A DNA stretch of 32,373 bases from Bacteroidota bacterium (GTDB taxonomy: Bacteria > Bacteroidota > Bacteroidia > Chitinophagales > Saprospiraceae). Positions 1 to 8,000 of the stretch are shown here, piece after piece. How positions within the stretch are numbered: the first letter of the stretch is position 1; each line of letters starts with the position of its first letter. The position numbers were made by a program, and so were the translations under genes. The stretch is from positions 1-32,373 of the forward strand of contig WGNL01000027.1 in the NCBI GenBank assembly GCA_016124585.1. The letters run 5' to 3'. Under the pieces are notes generated by a model, which was not told the DNA's origin, searched no databases, and worked only from the letters and a program-made list of their open reading frames with translations.

Positions 1-147
1 GACAAAGCCCGACTTGTCGCTGACAAAGCCCGACTTGTCGCTGACAAAGCCCGACTTGTCGCTGACAAAGCCCGACTTGTCGCTGACAAAGCCCGACTTG
101 TCGCTGACAAAGCCCGACTTGTCGCTGACAAAGCCCACCTTGGCAGG
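1..147. repeat. 21-bp tandem repeat array, left edge
   Basis: Six identical 21-bp units (1-126) are followed by a seventh that decays after about 10 bases. Each unit carries the inverted pair GACAA / TTGTC separated by 8 bases, so each can form a small hairpin. The array may continue left of the window. One plus frame reads as a repeated heptapeptide DKARLVA and stays open from base 1 to a TAG at 175-177, a second plus frame is also open, and the third meets a TGA in each unit. It could therefore be the 3' end of a repetitive coding sequence, but open frames are automatic for a stop-free 21-bp unit, so a non-coding array is preferred. Confidence 0.95.
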
Positions 148-625: not shown

Positions 626-2026
626 CTACAAGGCAAAGCTTGGCCTGATGACTTCTTCATCTGCTATCATTTCAAAATCGTCACCTAGATAATGGAACAT
701 ATTGGAAAGATTCACCGTCAATTCATGGATTGCATATTTCGCAATACGGTAGTCTTCCACCTCAAAAATGACTCTGCATTCTTCCTTCAGGATACGCATC
801 CATTCACGGAGGATTTTATCTTCACACTTGGCCAGACTTTGAAACCACTTGCAGCAGCTATCTGGCGCTTCTTTCAGTCTTTTCCGCTCTTGGTAATCAT
901 AGTATTCCCCCCAGGGCTGCTCGCCCTTCTCGGCGGCTATTTCCTGGATTTTTAATGCCAGAATTATATTTGAATTACGGGATGCATAGGAATGGATAAC
1001 AGGTACCAGGTCCCATCTTTCCAGGAGCAAGGCAGTCAGTACTTCAGGTTCCTTCGGTGCCATTGCATCAATGCTGTCCTCCAGTTCCAGTATTCTTTGA
1101 TACAATTCCGGAAAATTCACGCAAGCTTCCGCTTTAATATACCTGAAATTGACATAGTCATATCCAAAGCCTTCGGCCTTGTCAATACGAACGTAAATGC
1201 GCATGGTGTTTTCACCCACCAGGTTCCATTCGTTTTCATAGTCAACTATTTCAATCGTGAAGTCCTTATTACTATCATGGCCCTTGACCATTTTCATAGC
1301 TTCGGCACGTATGCTTTCTAGCTCAAACCCCTTTAAGTTGATGGCCATTTGTTCTGATGGCTCCGACATTTTCTCGGCCAGCCAAATAACCTGTGCCCCA
1401 TTTCGCCCCACTTCATAAGCATAGCCCAATACAAATTCGTGCAGCTGCTGAAGTTCTTCCTCTGTCAGCTTATTGATATTTTTATACGAAGCATAAAGCT
1501 CCTTTTTTGCCGATTCGTAGTACAACTCCGTTAGATAATCCATGAAAGCCCATTGGTCGAAACCAGACAATGGCTTCTCCTTTGGGGTTTCCTTCCCTCC
1601 ATGTTCCGTGATTTCGGCGGTACCAGGAGCATCTTTGCTCAACGTAACTGTGAATTCTATGATAAAAGGTATTGCCCTTTCAAGTTCATCAGCGGGCAAA
1701 TGGTCCATGTACTTTCGCACGAACCCAGTAAAATCAAACCCCTCTGCTTCCAAAGCCTTGATGACCGGAAGCTCATCGTCACTGATACTATTGATATGTT
1801 TTACCAAGCGCTCAATATAGGCATGCTGTTCGGGGGCATATTTTTCGCTTTGTTCCACCATGTACCAAAACGGCGCATCAAAAAAGTAACCCTGCTCATT
1901 GGAGTTAATCGTGATTTTGAATACACAGTTTTTTATCTTGCCCTTATAGCCTCTTGGTTCAAATTCGTATTCAAATTCCTCCAAGTCATATTCAAAATTT
2001 CCGGTCGTGGATGTCAGTATTGCCAT
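626..2026 (-). CDS. Hypothetical acidic cytoplasmic protein, 466 aa
   Basis: I do not recognise this protein. It starts with ATG at 2026 (MAILTSTTGNFEYDLEEFEY) and ends with TAG at 626-628. There is no signal peptide, lipobox or membrane segment, so it is probably cytoplasmic. It is rich in Glu/Asp and aromatic residues, with alternating predicted helical and strand-like stretches and a lysine/proline-rich linker near residues 142-152. Continuous coding over 1.4 kb with amphipathic, protein-like composition supports a real gene, whereas the antisense frames look like shadows. No clear promoter was found upstream. It sits alone between repeat-rich intergenic stretches, which suggests accessory rather than core function. 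Confidence 0.75.
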   Translation of the reverse strand: MAILTSTTGNFEYDLEEFEYEFEPRGYKGKIKNCVFKITINSNEQGYFFDAPFWYMVEQSEKYAPEQHAYIERLVKHINSISDDELPVIKALEAEGFDFTGFVRKYMDHLPADELERAIPFIIEFTVTLSKDAPGTAEITEHGGKETPKEKPLSGFDQWAFMDYLTELYYESAKKELYASYKNINKLTEEELQQLHEFVLGYAYEVGRNGAQVIWLAEKMSEPSEQMAINLKGFELESIRAEAMKMVKGHDSNKDFTIEIVDYENEWNLVGENTMRIYVRIDKAEGFGYDYVNFRYIKAEACVNFPELYQRILELEDSIDAMAPKEPEVLTALLLERWDLVPVIHSYASRNSNIILALKIQEIAAEKGEQPWGEYYDYQERKRLKEAPDSCCKWFQSLAKCEDKILREWMRILKEECRVIFEVEDYRIAKYAIHELTVNLSNMFHYLGDDFEMIADEEVIRPSFAL

Positions 2027-2222
2027 TTTCTATTGTTTTTGGTCTGTTTGGTTTACGTTGGAATGCGGCAAAAGTTCCACAATTTTCTCCGCTGGTGCAA
2101 TAGCTGTCTTTTCTGTAAAAAACGGTACTATTTGTCACAAGCTGCCCTTGTTGACGAGTTAGGTTGTGCTCGATAGCTATTGGGATTGGCCGTAGTGCGT
2201 AGGCCATGCGTCGCAACTTTCT

Positions 2223-2238
2223 GAGGCCGGGAGGCCTC
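2223..2238. repeat. Hairpin GAGGCC-GGGA-GGCCTC
   Basis: A perfect 6-bp inverted repeat with a 4-base loop. No T-run follows on either side, so it is not a standard intrinsic terminator. It lies in the hairpin-rich region upstream of the 466-aa gene. Confidence 0.5.
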
Positions 2239-2253
2239 CACTGAAATCCATCA

Positions 2254-2276
2254 ACGAGCGAAGCTCGTGACGAGCT
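2254..2276. repeat. Overlapping hairpins around ACGAGC/GCTCGT
   Basis: ACGAGC-GAA-GCTCGT (2254-2268) overlaps a second palindrome AGCTCGTGACGAGCT (2262-2276), so two mutually exclusive stems are possible. A T6 run at 2283-2288 follows on the plus strand, so it could act as a weak plus-strand terminator, but no plus-strand gene precedes it. Confidence 0.4.
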
Positions 2277-2323
2277 GTGTCGTTTTTTGATGGGGAGGCA
2301 GGGGGTGCGCTAGCGGGGAACTT

Positions 2324-2364
2324 GAACCAGCGTGTTCGAGGGGGAAGACCCTGCGCCAGCCGGG
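2324..2364. repeat. Dispersed ~40-bp repeat, copy 1
   Basis: Begins GAACCAGCGTG and ends with the block GAAGACCCTGCGCCAGC followed by CGGG. The same opening and closing blocks recur at 2740-2776 and 2781-2819, and the closing block alone near 3530. The closing block can fold as a CCCTGC/GCGGGG stem (one T-G wobble) in the copies with GCGGGG. Confidence 0.75.
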
Positions 2365-2722
2365 ATTGGCGTTCGGATAAATCTGATTGGGGGAAACGAG
2401 GTGTGGGTGGTTAGGAAGTTTGTGAAGGCTTAGCCAATTAAAAAATCCTGTGTAAGACTTGGTGCAGCAGGGGAAAATGGAATGAAAGAATTTGGCTGAA
2501 AAAAATGATTTGAGCAACATGGTACGCACCCCCCTCCAGAAGTTCTTGCAAGTTTAAAAATTGCAAGCGCAGTCATTTGCAAAAAGCTGGTCGTTTTTTG
2601 GGTTTCAGTGCTCGTAATTAGAGGTGTGCTCCAGTTTTCCACCTGTTTTCCTGTTTCATTGACTTGTCATTTCTTTTTGGTAAAGATATGAGACGTGCCG
2701 ATACCAGGTTCAAGTCAGGTCC

Positions 2723-2734
2723 CGATAGCTATCG
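2723..2734. repeat. Perfect 12-bp palindrome CGATAGCTATCG
   Basis: A fully self-complementary 12-mer directly before copy 2 of the dispersed repeat. A related sequence, CGATAGCTATTG, lies at 2171-2182. Palindromes of this kind occur as small intergenic repeats in Bacteroidota. No bound protein is implied by the sequence alone. Confidence 0.55.
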
Positions 2735-2739
2735 AGGAT

Positions 2740-2819
2740 GAACCAGCGTAACCGGGAAGACCCTGCGCCAGCGGGGTATTGAACCAGCACTGTGTTGGGA
2801 AGAACCTGTGCCAGCGGGG
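2740..2819. repeat. Dispersed ~40-bp repeat, copies 2 and 3 in tandem
   Basis: Two direct copies, 2740-2776 and 2781-2819, each opening with GAACCAGC and closing with a CCAGCGGGG block. They lie immediately before the second 21-bp array. Copy 3 has diverged (AACCTGTGCC in place of GACCCTGCGCC). The arrangement suggests local duplication. Confidence 0.75.
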
Positions 2820-2844
2820 CAAGCTTAGCTATTTTTTGTACAAA

Positions 2845-3073
2845 AAACTATCGCTAAACGGGAACAAACTACCGTTAAATGGGAACAAACTAATGGTAAA
2901 CAGGAACAAACTAGTGCTAAGCTGTGCACGTTTAGCGGTGTTTTGCGCAAACTACCGCTAAACGGGAACAAACTAACGGTAAGCTGTGCACGTTTAGCAG
3001 TGTTTTGCGCAAACTACCGCTAAACGGGGACAAACTAACGGTAAGCTGGAACAAACTATCGCTAAACTGTACA
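2845..3073. repeat. 21-bp tandem array with inverted units
   Basis: Eleven units of 20-21 bp. Nine are in one orientation, opening AAACTA and usually containing CGCTAAACGGGAAC or a variant. Two (2929-2948 and 2991-3010) are reverse-oriented units (CGTTTAGCGGTGTTTTGCGC and a variant) that can pair with their neighbours through the perfect 10-bp match CCGCTAAACG/CGTTTAGCGG. One plus frame reads as imperfect heptapeptides (KLSLNGN, KLPLNGN, KLMVNRN), but it soon stops after the first inverted unit, which argues against coding function. Regular spacing with no unique spacers excludes CRISPR. Confidence 0.95.
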
Positions 3074-3117
3074 GGCTTTTAGCTTATTTTCAATAGGCGT
3101 GAAGGCCGGAACCATAG

Positions 3118-3351
3118 CCTGTCAATTACCACTGGCAAATATCAAATGACGATGGTGTCACCGTCAGCGATTTGCCTTCCAGCAACAATTCGCACCACCA
3201 CAAGACCACGCTGAGCCTCGGTGTGGCCTATAAGGTGTGGGTCACATACGCCACCACGGCTGGCGCCGGCTTCTATTCCGAATGGTTGGAAATCTCGCTG
3301 ACGAAGGACATGGTGGCAAAAGTGAAGGCGCCGCCGAAGGTGAAGATTTAA
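3118..3351 (+). pseudogene. 3' remnant of a fibronectin-III-like repeat protein gene
   Basis: An open stretch of 77 codons running from just after a TAG at 3115-3117 to TAA at 3349-3351, with no plausible start codon. The translation contains a fibronectin-III-like C-terminal half: a T-x-L-x-L-G-x-x-Y-x-V-W-V-x-Y block followed by an A-G-x-G-x-Y-S-E-W-L block, then a Lys-rich tail ending KVKI. This resembles the end of small Bacteroidota proteins with a single FN3-like domain. The composition is GC-rich and protein-like, and an intrinsic terminator follows 24 bases after the stop, so this was probably a functional gene whose 5' part was lost or replaced by the adjoining repeats. Assignment to FN3 is by pattern only. 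Confidence 0.6.
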
Positions 3352-3375
3352 ACGTAGTATTTGGACATAAAAGGT

Positions 3376-3403
3376 AGCCCGACCGAGAGGTTGGGCTTTT
3401 TTT
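3376..3403 (+). terminator. Intrinsic terminator after the FN3 gene remnant
   Basis: AGCCCGACC-GAGA-GGTTGGGCT forms a 9-bp stem (one G-T wobble) with a tetraloop followed by a T7 run. It fits the plus-strand gene remnant that ends at 3351. An AAAA tract at 3369-3372 gives it weak terminator character on the minus strand too, where it could stop the HEPN gene transcript. Confidence 0.8.
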
Positions 3404-3529
3404 GTTGGCTTTTTTTGCTGGGCTTTATGGGAGGGAAAGTATGCGAAAATGGACGTGTGCAGCTTTACAAATTGCAAACTTGCAAGAGCGAAGGGCTTTT
3501 AGACCTGCTAAATCACACTTGCGACAACT

Positions 3530-3548
3530 GGGGACCCTGCGCCAGTGG
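3530..3548. repeat. Dispersed repeat, partial copy 4
   Basis: GGGGACCCTGCGCCAGTGG matches the closing block of the repeats at 2324-2364 and 2740-2819. It ends directly against the stop codon of the HEPN gene (3549), marking the junction between the repeat-rich stretch and that gene. Confidence 0.6.
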
Positions 3549-4982
3549 TTAGATGATTCTGAGAATATCTTTATCTCCCTTTGGTTTTTCTTTATTCATT
3601 AGCAATCTCAAATTAGCTTGACTAAGGACTATTCCATGAAATCCACAGTATTTTAGTATTAGATAAGATACAAGTTGGAATAATTTATCGGATACGAAAT
3701 TTAACTCTGATTCAGCACTTTCATAGTCGAAGTCAAAAGGTATCCGACCATGCAGAAATTGATTTCTCATCTTTAAAGCCTCTATGTCATCTGTAGTTAA
3801 CGATATGCCAAGTGCTTTAAATGCTTCGATGTAGCTTTCAGTATTGCCTACTTGATTGATGTTTTCGACCTTCTTGACTACTGCTTCCTTAGAATTAAAA
3901 GAATCAAGTGGAATTTCGTCAAGAATTTCTTTTACAGCTAAAATAAAGTTCTTTGCAATTTTGGCATCTTTAAAAGGGGTTGAGTTTTTGGTTGGTTTGC
4001 GTTGAACTATATTTCTCATGGTTTCTATTGCAACAGAATATATTGATGTCTTAAGCTCCAAGGGTAAATCACCTGCTTCCGAAATTAGCCTAATACATCT
4101 TAGTAGTTCGGGCTGGGATATGGACTTCTCTACAATTTCATTGAAAACAATCATTGGTAATTTGGTGTCCCCGTATTTTTTTTGCATACTTATCCCTTTG
4201 ATTAATTCATCAGGAACAATTGTTGAATAACTTTTTATAGTTCGTTTGTTATTAGACTCATACCCAAACTCTTCAATCAATGAAAAATCTGCATCTTTGG
4301 ATGCAAAATAATATGTCTCTCCCTGATAAAGAGTGCCCGTGACAAATGCAATAGAATATCTTACTGCGCTAACAATTTCTAAAAATTTTTCATTATTGAA
4401 TACCATCCTTGACTCAATAGCGATGTATGTTTTATTGTCAATTTCAAAATCGAAAATGTCATAAAACATTGACCTGATTAGGCCAACGTATCTCAAGTAA
4501 TTATCGATTTTTATTCCAGCAGAAGTAATAAACGCTGACAATCTTTGAGTAGGATGGAATTTTGCTTGTAGAATTGCGACTTGATATAAATACCTTGTTT
4601 TTAACCCTTCTGAGTGGAGGTTTCTGATTTCACCTTTGATAAAGTACTCAGAATCATCAAGACTCATTGTCATTTTACTTGAGCCAAAGGGGATAACGAA
4701 TGATTCCGACTTGCGTTTAAGTACAAATTGTGCAGTAAAACCATAACCACTTCGTTGATAATTTACGGGTTCTTGAGGCGTTGATATTAAGTCCTTGCAT
4801 CTAAATTTGAAGAGATTATCAACTTTTGCGAGTTCGACTGTAGCGGAATTAAGAGTTGGAGTTGTACTAATTGCCGTGAAAGAACTCCAGTCTTCTAATT
4901 TTTTGATGTAATCGAAAAAAACGGATGTTTTTTTAATGCTATCATTTCTTTTGATTTCATCACTTAGTTCATCTAATGTCAT
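3549..4982 (-). CDS. HEPN-domain protein, possible ApeA-like anti-phage RNase
   Basis: A 477-aa protein with no signal peptide. The C-terminal third is helical and carries an RNxxxH motif (R406, N407, H411, in MRNQFLHGR). In HEPN-fold RNases this R-x4-6-H motif is catalytic. The N-terminal ~300 residues are beta-rich with many aromatics, which with the C-terminal HEPN gives the layout of ApeA-type defence proteins. The ApeA comparison is from layout and motif, not from alignment. The start is taken as the ATG at 4982 (MTLDELSDEI) because a consensus promoter lies just upstream; an in-frame GTG at 5051 would lie upstream of that promoter. Two 60-base samples of this gene have 19 and 20 G+C, against 36 and 31 in the next gene, suggesting transfer. 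It stands alone next to a repeat island. Confidence 0.7.
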   Translation of the reverse strand: MTLDELSDEIKRNDSIKKTSVFFDYIKKLEDWSSFTAISTTPTLNSATVELAKVDNLFKFRCKDLISTPQEPVNYQRSGYGFTAQFVLKRKSESFVIPFGSSKMTMSLDDSEYFIKGEIRNLHSEGLKTRYLYQVAILQAKFHPTQRLSAFITSAGIKIDNYLRYVGLIRSMFYDIFDFEIDNKTYIAIESRMVFNNEKFLEIVSAVRYSIAFVTGTLYQGETYYFASKDADFSLIEEFGYESNNKRTIKSYSTIVPDELIKGISMQKKYGDTKLPMIVFNEIVEKSISQPELLRCIRLISEAGDLPLELKTSIYSVAIETMRNIVQRKPTKNSTPFKDAKIAKNFILAVKEILDEIPLDSFNSKEAVVKKVENINQVGNTESYIEAFKALGISLTTDDIEALKMRNQFLHGRIPFDFDYESAESELNFVSDKLFQLVSYLILKYCGFHGIVLSQANLRLLMNKEKPKGDKDILRII

Positions 4983-4993
4983 TAGTGGTTTTT

Positions 4994-5024
4994 CAAAGAT
5001 AGTTAAGAACAATTTGGCAACAAA
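4994..5024 (-). promoter_or_regulatory. Bacteroidota consensus promoter for the HEPN gene
   Basis: On the minus strand TTTG (5024-5021), exactly 19 bases, then TATCTTTG (5001-4994) matches the Bacteroidota vegetative consensus TTTG-N19-TAnnTTTG. Transcription would begin roughly 5 bases before the ATG at 4982, giving an almost leaderless mRNA, and this decides the start codon. The -33 element sits just outside the terminator of the preceding gene. Confidence 0.65.
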
Positions 5025-5026
5025 AT

Positions 5027-5063
5027 AAAGCCTTGGCGTGTCCTGAAACACACCAAGGCTTTT
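5027..5063 (-). terminator. Intrinsic terminator of the alpha-2-macroglobulin gene
   Basis: On the minus strand AAAGCCTTGG pairs with CCAAGGCTTT, extended inward by GTGT/ACAC after one mismatch, with a 6-base loop and a T-rich tail (TTTATTTTG). It begins 4 bases after the stop codon at 5067. A T-run also follows on the plus side, so it is potentially bidirectional. Confidence 0.85.
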
Positions 5064-5066
5064 AAG

Positions 5067-8000
5067 TTAAATCCCTTTATCCCCATTCACCACCTCCACC
5101 CACATCCCCGGCCTACTCGCCGAAATCGTATTATCGTACATCGCCGCACAGCCCACCGTCGGCAGGTAGTAGCGGCCCTGGTAAGCCGCAGTCAGCCGCA
5201 CCCGATACACCTGCCGGGCGCTACGGGCTATGTCGAAATAAGTGAGCACCCGGTCGTCCCGGATGTCCTGGTATTCCGGTACGTTGGTATTGGCAAATTC
5301 CGTGAAATTGTGCAGGCGGGCATTGATGATTTCCCAGCCGGAAGGGAAAATCTGGGTCAGGGCCATTTCCCGTAGGTCGTAAGCACGGGTGCCAAGGTTC
5401 GTCACCACCACTTCGGCGATGAAATCCGTGCCCTGCGGGATGGCTGCTGGGTTCAGTTTCACGCCATTGGGCGTTAGGTAGTTCACCTCGATTTTGATAT
5501 TGTTGGCAGTTGCCGTGGCATCGCCCACCAGCGGTTGCCCGGTCAGGATGAGGCGAGCATAGAGGACGCCTTCACCACTGTTTTTTACCGTCAAGGTCTT
5601 CTCAGCGCCGTTGAGTGGCACGCTGATTTGCATGAGAGGCGTATTGCTGCCAGCGTTTACCACCTTGCCATCGCCAAGGTCGTAGCTAAATTTGAAATCA
5701 TCACCCACTTTTGACTTTCCAGCGAATTTACCAATGGCCAACAGTGAGTAGGCGGTCGTCTGGGTGGAATACCACTGTTCATTGCTGAGGCTCTCGGCAA
5801 CGTGGCGTAGATTGGCAGCTGCGGCGGACATATCGCCAAGCAGTACTTGCGTTTCCAGAATCATGGCTTCGTCCCGAAGGCTGGAGCCGTAGGTATGTCC
5901 CCACCAGGAATAGACCTCACCAGTAGTCGGCAGGTTTTTCACAATTTCCTTTCCGATTTCCTGTTTGCCCATCAGTGCGTACGTGGCTGCCAACCTCCAT
6001 CGGGCTTCATTGGAGAGGTTTTTCAACTCCCGCATCCGGTTCATGGTGCTGGTCTCGGCTTTTTTCGCCAAAGCCAAAGTGTACAAACGGTAGGCTTGGT
6101 CAAGTTCCGTCCAGCTATGCTGGGTGCCACGGGTGTCAGGGTTCCAGCGTTTGGCTTGCCCCTGCTGGAACTTGACGAATCGGTCAATCATCGCATCCGG
6201 TACTTTGTAACCAGCAGCTTTGGCTTCCAAGAGGAAGTGGCCAGCGTAGTTGGTGCCCCAAGAATCATAGTCATTGCCAGGCCAGTAGGTGAAGCCACCG
6301 GACGGCATCTGGAAATTTTTCAACTTGTCGATAGCTGCATTGATATTGGCCGTCTGATCTGCTTTTTGCTGCTCCGTGAGCTTGGTCAGCTTGTCCACGT
6401 ACAACTGTGGGAAAGCAGCCGAAGTGGTCTGTTCGATGCAACCGTGTGGGTATTGGATGAGGTATTTCAGGCGTTCGCCCAGTTTGAGCGGGGGAATGGC
6501 CGATACTTCCAGCACGCCTGAATTACTTCCTTCCGTTCCGAATGCCTTGTAGGCTTGGCTCCATGATTCACCGCCCCGCATCAGGCCGTCGTTGACCCTC
6601 GTGACGTAGGGGTTCGGGTTGCGTACGTCCAGCTCGATTTCTTGGGTGGCCAGTTCACCACCTCCTTTGGCAGTGATTTTGAACTTCGCAATGCCCGTTT
6701 TTTCGCCCACTTTTAGGTCAAAATAAGTCATGTCCTCGTCAGGCTTTGCGAAGCTCATACTACGAGTGGCACCGCCAACAATATTGACCAGCCCAGTGGT
6801 TTCTGCCAAGGACACATCCACGTTTTTCACTTTGCTGTCCATCGCAAAAATGCTGACTGGAAGCTTGAGGGTTTCGCCGGGGCCAAGCACCCGTGGCAGT
6901 GTGGCCAGCGCCATCAGCGGCTTTTTCACGGGCACTATTTTCTCTGCATTGCCGTAGGCAGCGTCAGCATTGGCAGCTACCACCATTACCCGTACTGAGC
7001 CGACGTAATTGGGCATTTTGAAAGTATGCTTCTTTTTACCGCCAGTGTATTTGAACGGACCAGCATGCAACACTACAGGCTTGAAGCGGTTGGCGTTTTT
7101 GCGCTCGGTTGGGGTATTGACTTCACCGTCACCACCCACTGCCAGAATGCGCTCCAATTCGCCTCCGTATGCCCCAAGTACATAATCGTAAAGGTCCCAG
7201 GTTTTTACACCCAAGGCTTCCCTGGCGTAAAGCGCCCCATGCGGGTCGGGGGTTTTGAAATTGGTTAACCCAAGCAAGCCCTCATCCACCACGGCAATGG
7301 TGTAGGCCATGTCTTCGCCGTTTTCCTCACTTATTTCCACCGTGAATTCTTGCTCAGGTTTGAGTTCGTCGCTCATTTTTATCACGGGTTTCAGCAATGT
7401 TTTTGGGTCTTCCACATCTACCGCCAATACGCCGTACATACGGATGGGAAGGTCGTTTTTGACTTGGCCATGGGGCTGGAGCAGACTCACATGAGCATAA
7501 ACCGTTGGAGACATCTCCTCGGTCGCCTCGAATTTGAACTTATTTTCCCCCTTCTTGGCGTCTTTCCACATGGATTTGATGACTTTGGTGCCAGTCTCTA
7601 AAGTAATCAACACCCGGCCTTTGTCGCCAGCAGGTACAGTTATTTCAATGTCATCCCCAACTTTGTATTTTTCCTTGGAGGCAGTAAAAGTCATCATGGC
7701 AGCCTCTTGCCGACTTGCAATATTGCCGCCATCATCTCCGTACCAAGGGTATCCTGCGTAGAAATAATCGCCAGTGCAGTGGCCACTCTCCGTGTCGCAA
7801 ACCCTCACGAGGTAACGGCCCCAGTTGTTGACGTTCACGTTGTAGGTAGCCTTGCCCTCGGCATTGGTGACAAGGCCCTCACTGCTGATGGCGTTAAAAT
7901 GATTGGTGGAATTAAACTGGGAAACATAATCGTCGCCCTGGTCCCACCACCAGCGCCATTCTACCCGGTACAGCCCGACACTGAGGTTCCGGCCCTTTTG

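Follow-up and report, generated by a model that had tools for sequence, protein, structure and literature searches.

A predicted ApeA-related HEPN ribonuclease gene in a Saprospiraceae contig, with relatives scattered among Bacteroidota

The contig WGNL01000027.1 of a Bacteroidota bacterium (family Saprospiraceae) was analysed over its entire length of 32,373 bases, which is called the window here (contig C8 of a 6.6-Mb genome). It was found to contain a gene for a protein of 477 amino acids at positions 3549..4982 of the minus strand, with a beta-rich N-terminal region followed by a C-terminal HEPN domain; the gene is intact as an open reading frame (ORF) and in full-length alignment with its homologues. 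The gene is predicted, with a probability of about 0.62, to encode a self-contained, infection-triggered ribonuclease (RNase) acting against phages or plasmids. The computed basis of this reading was an ApeA-homologous HEPN domain with E320, R406 and H411, a distinct beta-rich front region, the recent import of the gene, a promoter-like site and scattered relatives, of which some are plasmid-borne and some lie in defence operons. An initial annotation of the same DNA had given the coordinates correctly and had named no strand.

The HEPN domain was assigned to residues 258-462 (3597..4211, minus strand) by a domain model, structural matches and hhalign comparison with the ApeA clade. The AlphaFold2 model of the whole protein, built from 21 sequences, reached a predicted local distance difference test score (pLDDT) of 80.4 and a predicted template modelling score (pTM) of 0.80, and contained strands between residues 34 and 250 followed by helices at 258-462, whereas the HEPN domain alone was modelled at a pLDDT of 85.6. 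The top structural alignments of the C-terminal AlphaFold model were HEPN and Csm6 structures. The RNxxxH motif that the initial annotation had placed in a helical C-terminus was located there as the catalytic-type sequence R406-N-Q-F-L-H411-G412 (3747..3767, minus strand), RNQFLH being the sole R-x4-6-H of the protein. In the profile alignment the acidic residue E320 (4023..4025, minus strand) fell opposite the Glu that is conserved in ApeA proteins.

Conservation was read from two overlapping sets of homologues, A1 (13 members) and A2 (16 aligned members), both found by protein and profile search with no motif pattern used. Residues 406, 410, 411 and 412 were identical in 13/13 members of A1 and in 16/16 of A2, and E320, N380, F388, R406, L410, H411 and G412 were invariant in A2. 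The HEPN superfamily is marked by an R-x4-6-H motif together with a conserved acidic residue (PMC3710099). Both marks were found in the family, with a helical HEPN fold in the model and with R406, H411 and E320 in all 16 members of A2. A HEPN fold was thus predicted with its R/H pair retained, and the proposed HEPN domain is backed by the C-terminal model fold together with controlled profile-profile homology. On model and profile evidence, the C-terminus is a predicted HEPN domain with a homologue in ApeA.

The window protein alone gave nothing above chance in single-sequence searches and belonged to no Pfam, PADLOC or NCBIfam family. The family profile was compared by hhalign with a profile of the ApeA clade (set A3, 11 proteins, one of which, L051, lies under the Pfam cut-off) and gave 95.5% with a score of 73.7; the values ranged over 95.3-95.9% with scores of 65-77, and the controls did not exceed 17.6. 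The profile kinship was to ApeA rather than to DUF4145 or Abi_2, for which the comparison sets contained 6 and 3 proteins, respectively. Among HEPN models, HEPN_Apea (PF18739) alone was listed by Pfam and PADLOC for the 13 members. It was matched by 3/13 members at E <= 1 (L005 at E 6.5e-5) and its cut-off was reached by 0/13, the best score being 23.8 bits against 24.4; no match was found at E <= 1 for the window protein, nor any PADLOC (2023) match at E <= 1 for the 13 members.

The initial annotation had proposed an ApeA-like layout and possibly a new subfamily. The layout held, with about 250 beta-rich residues followed by HEPN; the protein departs from ApeA in its N-terminus and in missing the PF18739 cut-off. 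The new subfamily was borne out and is better termed a sister family, since clear kinship is confined to the HEPN half and the N-terminal region is unmatched to that of ApeA; the protein family is, as far as profiles tell, a sister family of ApeA and not ApeA itself. Like ApeA (PF18739 with ApeA-NTD1), it consists of a single gene of similar length with a beta-rich N-terminus and a HEPN C-terminus, carries R-x4-H with a conserved Glu, aligns over the HEPN half at hhalign 95.3%, and shares the occurrence in restriction operons that is recorded for ApeA genes in PMC3710099. Unlike ApeA, it lies under the PF18739 cut-off, its residues 1-195 have no similarity to the ApeA N-terminus (hhalign 0.1-0.3%, a comparison at the sequence level), and its motif is of the R[N/D]x[F/Y/L]LHG type, whereas several members of A3 contain RNYYTH.

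The N-terminal region at residues 34-250 (4233..4883, minus strand) was confirmed as long and beta-rich by the strands of the AlphaFold2 model. It is a presumed sensor of no clear family, its structural matches were weak throughout, and no ApeA-type N-terminal domain (NTD1) was listed by Pfam among the 13 members. In 3/13 members (L006, L008 and L009) a gamma-glutamyl cyclotransferase-like (AIG2/GGACT) domain was fused ahead in the first 150 residues; the Pfam hit was shown singly for L006, and L008 and L009 were assigned by alignment. L009 is the Wadjet-linked protein of locus L031 described below. L064, L065 and L072 contained about 100-150 extra N-terminal residues that were GYF-like by eye, a match that Pfam did not give for L072.

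The frame of the gene was found to run from an ATG at 4982 to a stop codon ending at 3549 with no internal stops. An alternative GTG start at 5051 falls within a terminator-like hairpin of 16 pairs (5027..5062, minus strand) that lies 3′ of the upstream gene for a bacterial alpha-2-macroglobulin of 1887 amino acids (Pfam), and the ATG was chosen for this reason. A joint operon with the macroglobulin gene was ruled out by the same intervening hairpin; seven such hairpins were found in 2000-5400 against 3.3 expected. A promoter-like site, TTTG-N19-TATCTTTG (4994..5024, minus strand), ends 11 bases 5′ of the ATG. It was the single exact match of TTTG-N19-21-TAnnTTTG in the window with both strands scanned, a consensus that we take to be of the Bacteroidota promoter type. 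By chance 0.70 sites are expected per window and at least one was found in 48/100 shuffles, so the evidence lies in the position of the site and not in its presence. Since the hairpin separates the macroglobulin gene and the promoter-like site stands just before the ATG, the HEPN gene would be transcribed alone and is probably its own transcription unit.

The gene was found in a solitary position between the macroglobulin gene and a downstream set of tandem repeats with 21-bp and 62-bp units (2845..3067). A coding-sequence fragment (3124..3351, plus strand) translates as the C-terminal end of a protein without assigned family. The lone position beside repeats and a broken gene that had been noted earlier was therefore correct, as was the low G+C, at 33.5% for the HEPN gene against 50.8% for the macroglobulin gene. 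The third codon positions contained 28.9% and 58.6% G+C, respectively; overall G+C was 43.5% in the ORF at 626-2026 and 44.5-50.6% in ten more ORFs of the window. The macroglobulin gene behaved as a core gene with matches in 14/14 genomes of the genus, of which 12, counting that of the window itself, were near-whole with identities of 55-100%; one was partial and one was only 24% identical. The HEPN gene was not found outside the window's own genome among 199 genomes of the family by family-profile search, and no copy was found by tblastn at the macroglobulin loci of nine relatives, where three stretches stop 0.6-2 kb from the macroglobulin gene. The nearest relative, whose macroglobulin is 89% identical, has a match to window 2089-2166 at a distance of about 0.15 kb from the stop of that gene; the corresponding distance in the window is 2.9 kb. 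This suggests about 2.7 kb extra in the window that contains the HEPN gene and the repeats, with ends that are not fixed because the anchor is a short stretch of 79 bases with 76% identity amid dispersed repeats. On these comparisons the HEPN gene is predicted to have entered an intergenic site recently. A decayed or silent import without function in the host strain today would agree with the low G+C, the adjoining repeats and coding fragment and the sole carrier among 199 genomes; it is very improbable in view of the full-length frame, the presence of all conserved residues and the promoter-like site of consensus type just upstream.

Three further observations concern the same end of the window. 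Short stretches of the intergenic region 2030-3548 recur as dispersed repeats in contigs C4, C5, C6 and C16 and in a relative. The ORF at 626-2026 (minus strand, 466 amino acids, P0002) had no Pfam, NCBIfam or PADLOC family and was not found at the macroglobulin loci of the nine relatives; it possibly belongs to the same variable region as the HEPN gene. A perfect 21-bp tandem repeat of 6.5 copies occupies window 1-136 at the start of the contig, perhaps the point where the assembly broke.

Homologues were seen in Bacteroidota only, in searches of the order, the phylum, a species scan and plasmids. Among 396 genomes of the order, 12 were matched, namely the window itself, 10 true homologues and one false TPR-like match (L012), which was dropped as a TPR protein by eye with the motif missing. 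Seven of 395 genomes of the phylum were matched, including the window itself and one homologue already known. A scan with sequence patterns, over a single genome from each species, gave 20 loci, all with Bacteroidota record titles; one of its two patterns held RNx[FY]LHG, so that conservation there is partly built in and the counts quoted above are from A1 and A2. Two homologues were plasmid-borne, in Hymenobacter swuensis and Chryseobacterium shandongense, and two Abi genes and a restriction gene were found near the homologue on plasmid L014. None was found in phage records or in one scan of viral contigs.

Gene neighbourhoods were surveyed at 32 loci with mechanically called ORFs, where a partner was defined as a co-directional ORF of at least 90 codons within 100 bp. 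Close pairs were retained (L024/L026, L054/L055, L057/L059 and L066/L069), L072 was not double-counted as the same protein as L005/L027, and L011 (short contig), the plasmids L013 and L014 and L019 (internal stop, also left out of the alignments) were excluded. Partners may have been missed at L032, L054, L063 and L071, which lie near contig ends. An operon partner was absent at 18/32 loci and present at 14/32. Six of the latter (L024, L026, L031, L028, L036 and L067) were in clear defence operons: the homologue was directly behind JetD of Wadjet in L024 and L026 (no gap) and L031 (43 bp), preceded a SIR2-Argonaute gene by 12 bp in L028 (PADLOC, 1611 bits), followed an nSTAND3/Mrr gene after 49 bp in L036 (PDC-S73, 535 bits) and belonged in L067 to the same operon as a type IIG-like methylase, AbiV and AbiGi. 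A second HEPN gene was adjacent in L025 (E 2.5e-6), and the partner in L059 was of PLD type and hit ZacB and PDC-M27B weakly. Six loci had less telling partners: DUF5677 in L061, DUF4238 in L071, an unmatched protein in L034, a resolvase-like protein by reading in L070, an unmatched protein and a weak NERD hit in L073, where JetABC lies nearby on the opposite strand (blastp), and an unassigned partner in L069. HEPN genes were already known in restriction operons and behind Argonautes (PMC3710099, PMC3506569, PMC10954474). Enrichment near defence genes overall is an impression rather than a measured rate; the exact position behind JetD is firm.

Two side observations were made at these loci. 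HEPN-type (PF05168, AbiV) or DUF5677 genes adjoined the homologue at L025:9784-10632, L061:8580-9437 and L067:9233-9889, as if such RNases travelled in pairs. Three genes upstream of the homologue at L059:3857-9337, for a PLD/tyrosyl-DNA phosphodiesterase-like protein (the L059 partner named above) and two proteins without family, are perhaps a system not yet described.

The motif alone is weak, as R-x4-6-H occurred in 40% and RNxxxH in 0.9% of 20,000 shuffled versions of the protein; RNQFLH is raised above chance by the conservation of its residues in members that were found without a motif pattern. The single-gene system proposed in the initial annotation is compatible with the 18 partnerless loci and with the promoter-like site of the window copy, while the 6/32 loci in clear defence operons indicate that the family gene can also be an add-on.

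An add-on role throughout the family, in which the protein mainly serves DNA-targeting systems (Wadjet, Argonaute, STAND or restriction) as their suicide arm, comparable to PrrC with PrrI, and the window copy is relocated or idle, is drawn from the three places after JetD, the neighbours of L028 and L036 and the operon of L067; such pairs are predicted by a published coupling hypothesis (PMC3506569). It is unlikely given the 18/32 loci without a qualifying partner, a genome of the window (G000) in which no JetD match was found, and a family gene at just 3 of the 30 JetD loci examined with 1.5-kb flanks, out of 47 JetD places found in 396 genomes. Another reading is a housekeeping or stress HEPN protein (in RNA processing, in a toxin-antitoxin pair or as a non-catalytic RNA binder) that lies near defence genes only because genomic islands collect mobile genes. 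HEPN families are numerous and some are non-catalytic (PMC3710099), and the sparse distribution suits any mobile gene. Such a role is distinctly unlikely, because the catalytic residues are invariant, the partner gene is not constant, the exact place behind JetD was found in two separate branches and the kin is ApeA rather than the DUF4145 and Abi_2 proteins compared. The 32 loci shared no one set of housekeeping neighbours.

The Wadjet calls were made by PADLOC, which named JetC in L024, and JetD and JetC in 2/107 neighbour proteins scanned, a set that did not hold L026. The calls of JetA and JetB rest on gene size, gene order and mutual similarity in blastp; L026 and L031 were assigned through blastp matches to L024. 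The neighbours in L024 had been taken from gene sizes alone as a type I restriction operon, and PADLOC overturned this. In a 36-member tree of the C-terminal part, L024/L026 and L031 (rows L002, L004 and L009) were split by a branch with 99/98 support, and because the linked members stand on its opposite sides, the link arose at least twice or was moved by exchange. Linkage among the 32 loci amounted to three in an operon and one more nearby, and the window gene is not linked. The gene before JetA in both fifth-gene operons is of the same size, at L024:1748-2221 (RadC-like by Pfam) and L026:1876-2349. No description of a HEPN fifth gene of Wadjet or of this ApeA-sister family was found in the open-licence literature, outside which most subscription journals lie.

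Other known systems share parts of this picture. The family is tied to Wadjet type I (JetABCD) by the three homologues that directly follow JetD, and is itself not a Jet protein. It resembles PrrC, RloC and further HEPN RNases with a coupling to DNA restriction as a HEPN RNase inside a DNA-targeting defence operon (L024, L026, L031 and L067) and in the notion of a second line of defence (PMC3506569); it differs in having no ABC-ATPase part. AbiV, Csm6 and HEPN-MNT toxins have the HEPN fold by structure in common with it and differ in their partner domains, and the window protein had no Pfam or PADLOC sequence match to them.

As a self-contained RNase, the protein would have its HEPN dimer kept inactive by the front half. 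The N-terminal region would detect a mark of infection or, in add-on copies, of the partner system's attack on DNA; the activated HEPN domain would then cut RNA, perhaps tRNA, so that translation stops and the infection ends together with the cell. An antitoxin gene is seemingly not needed, because 18/32 loci have no operon partner. RNases of similar kind, PrrC and a type IX retron, act in this way (PMC3506569, PMC13405049). Deoxydinucleotides activate ApeA according to the title of a preprint in the reference list of PMC13405049, and Wadjet cuts closed-circular plasmid DNA according to the title of a work referenced in PMC10952713. It is a speculation by analogy that, if the sister family reads a similar signal of DNA breakdown, its placement behind DNA-cutting systems would make sense. 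A wider proposal, which we regard as doubtful, is a HEPN family with the ApeA effector and another sensor that was repeatedly captured by unrelated DNA-targeting systems as a common fail-safe reading a by-product of DNA attack, with the solitary copies reading the same by-product from phage nucleases. If this were true, the capturing systems would be Wadjet, SIR2-Argonaute, STAND-Mrr and restriction, and RNA would be cut when the first line fails.

What is new is a predicted RNase family of defence type without a PADLOC 2023 match among the 13 members scanned, and no Pfam model above cut-off covers it, fused extra domains excepted. In it, an effector of the ApeA type is combined with another front region. 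Its association with Wadjet is the most testable part: a likely suicide RNase occurs as a fifth gene in two separate branches of the family, which suggests that cell shutdown can serve as a backup to plasmid restriction.
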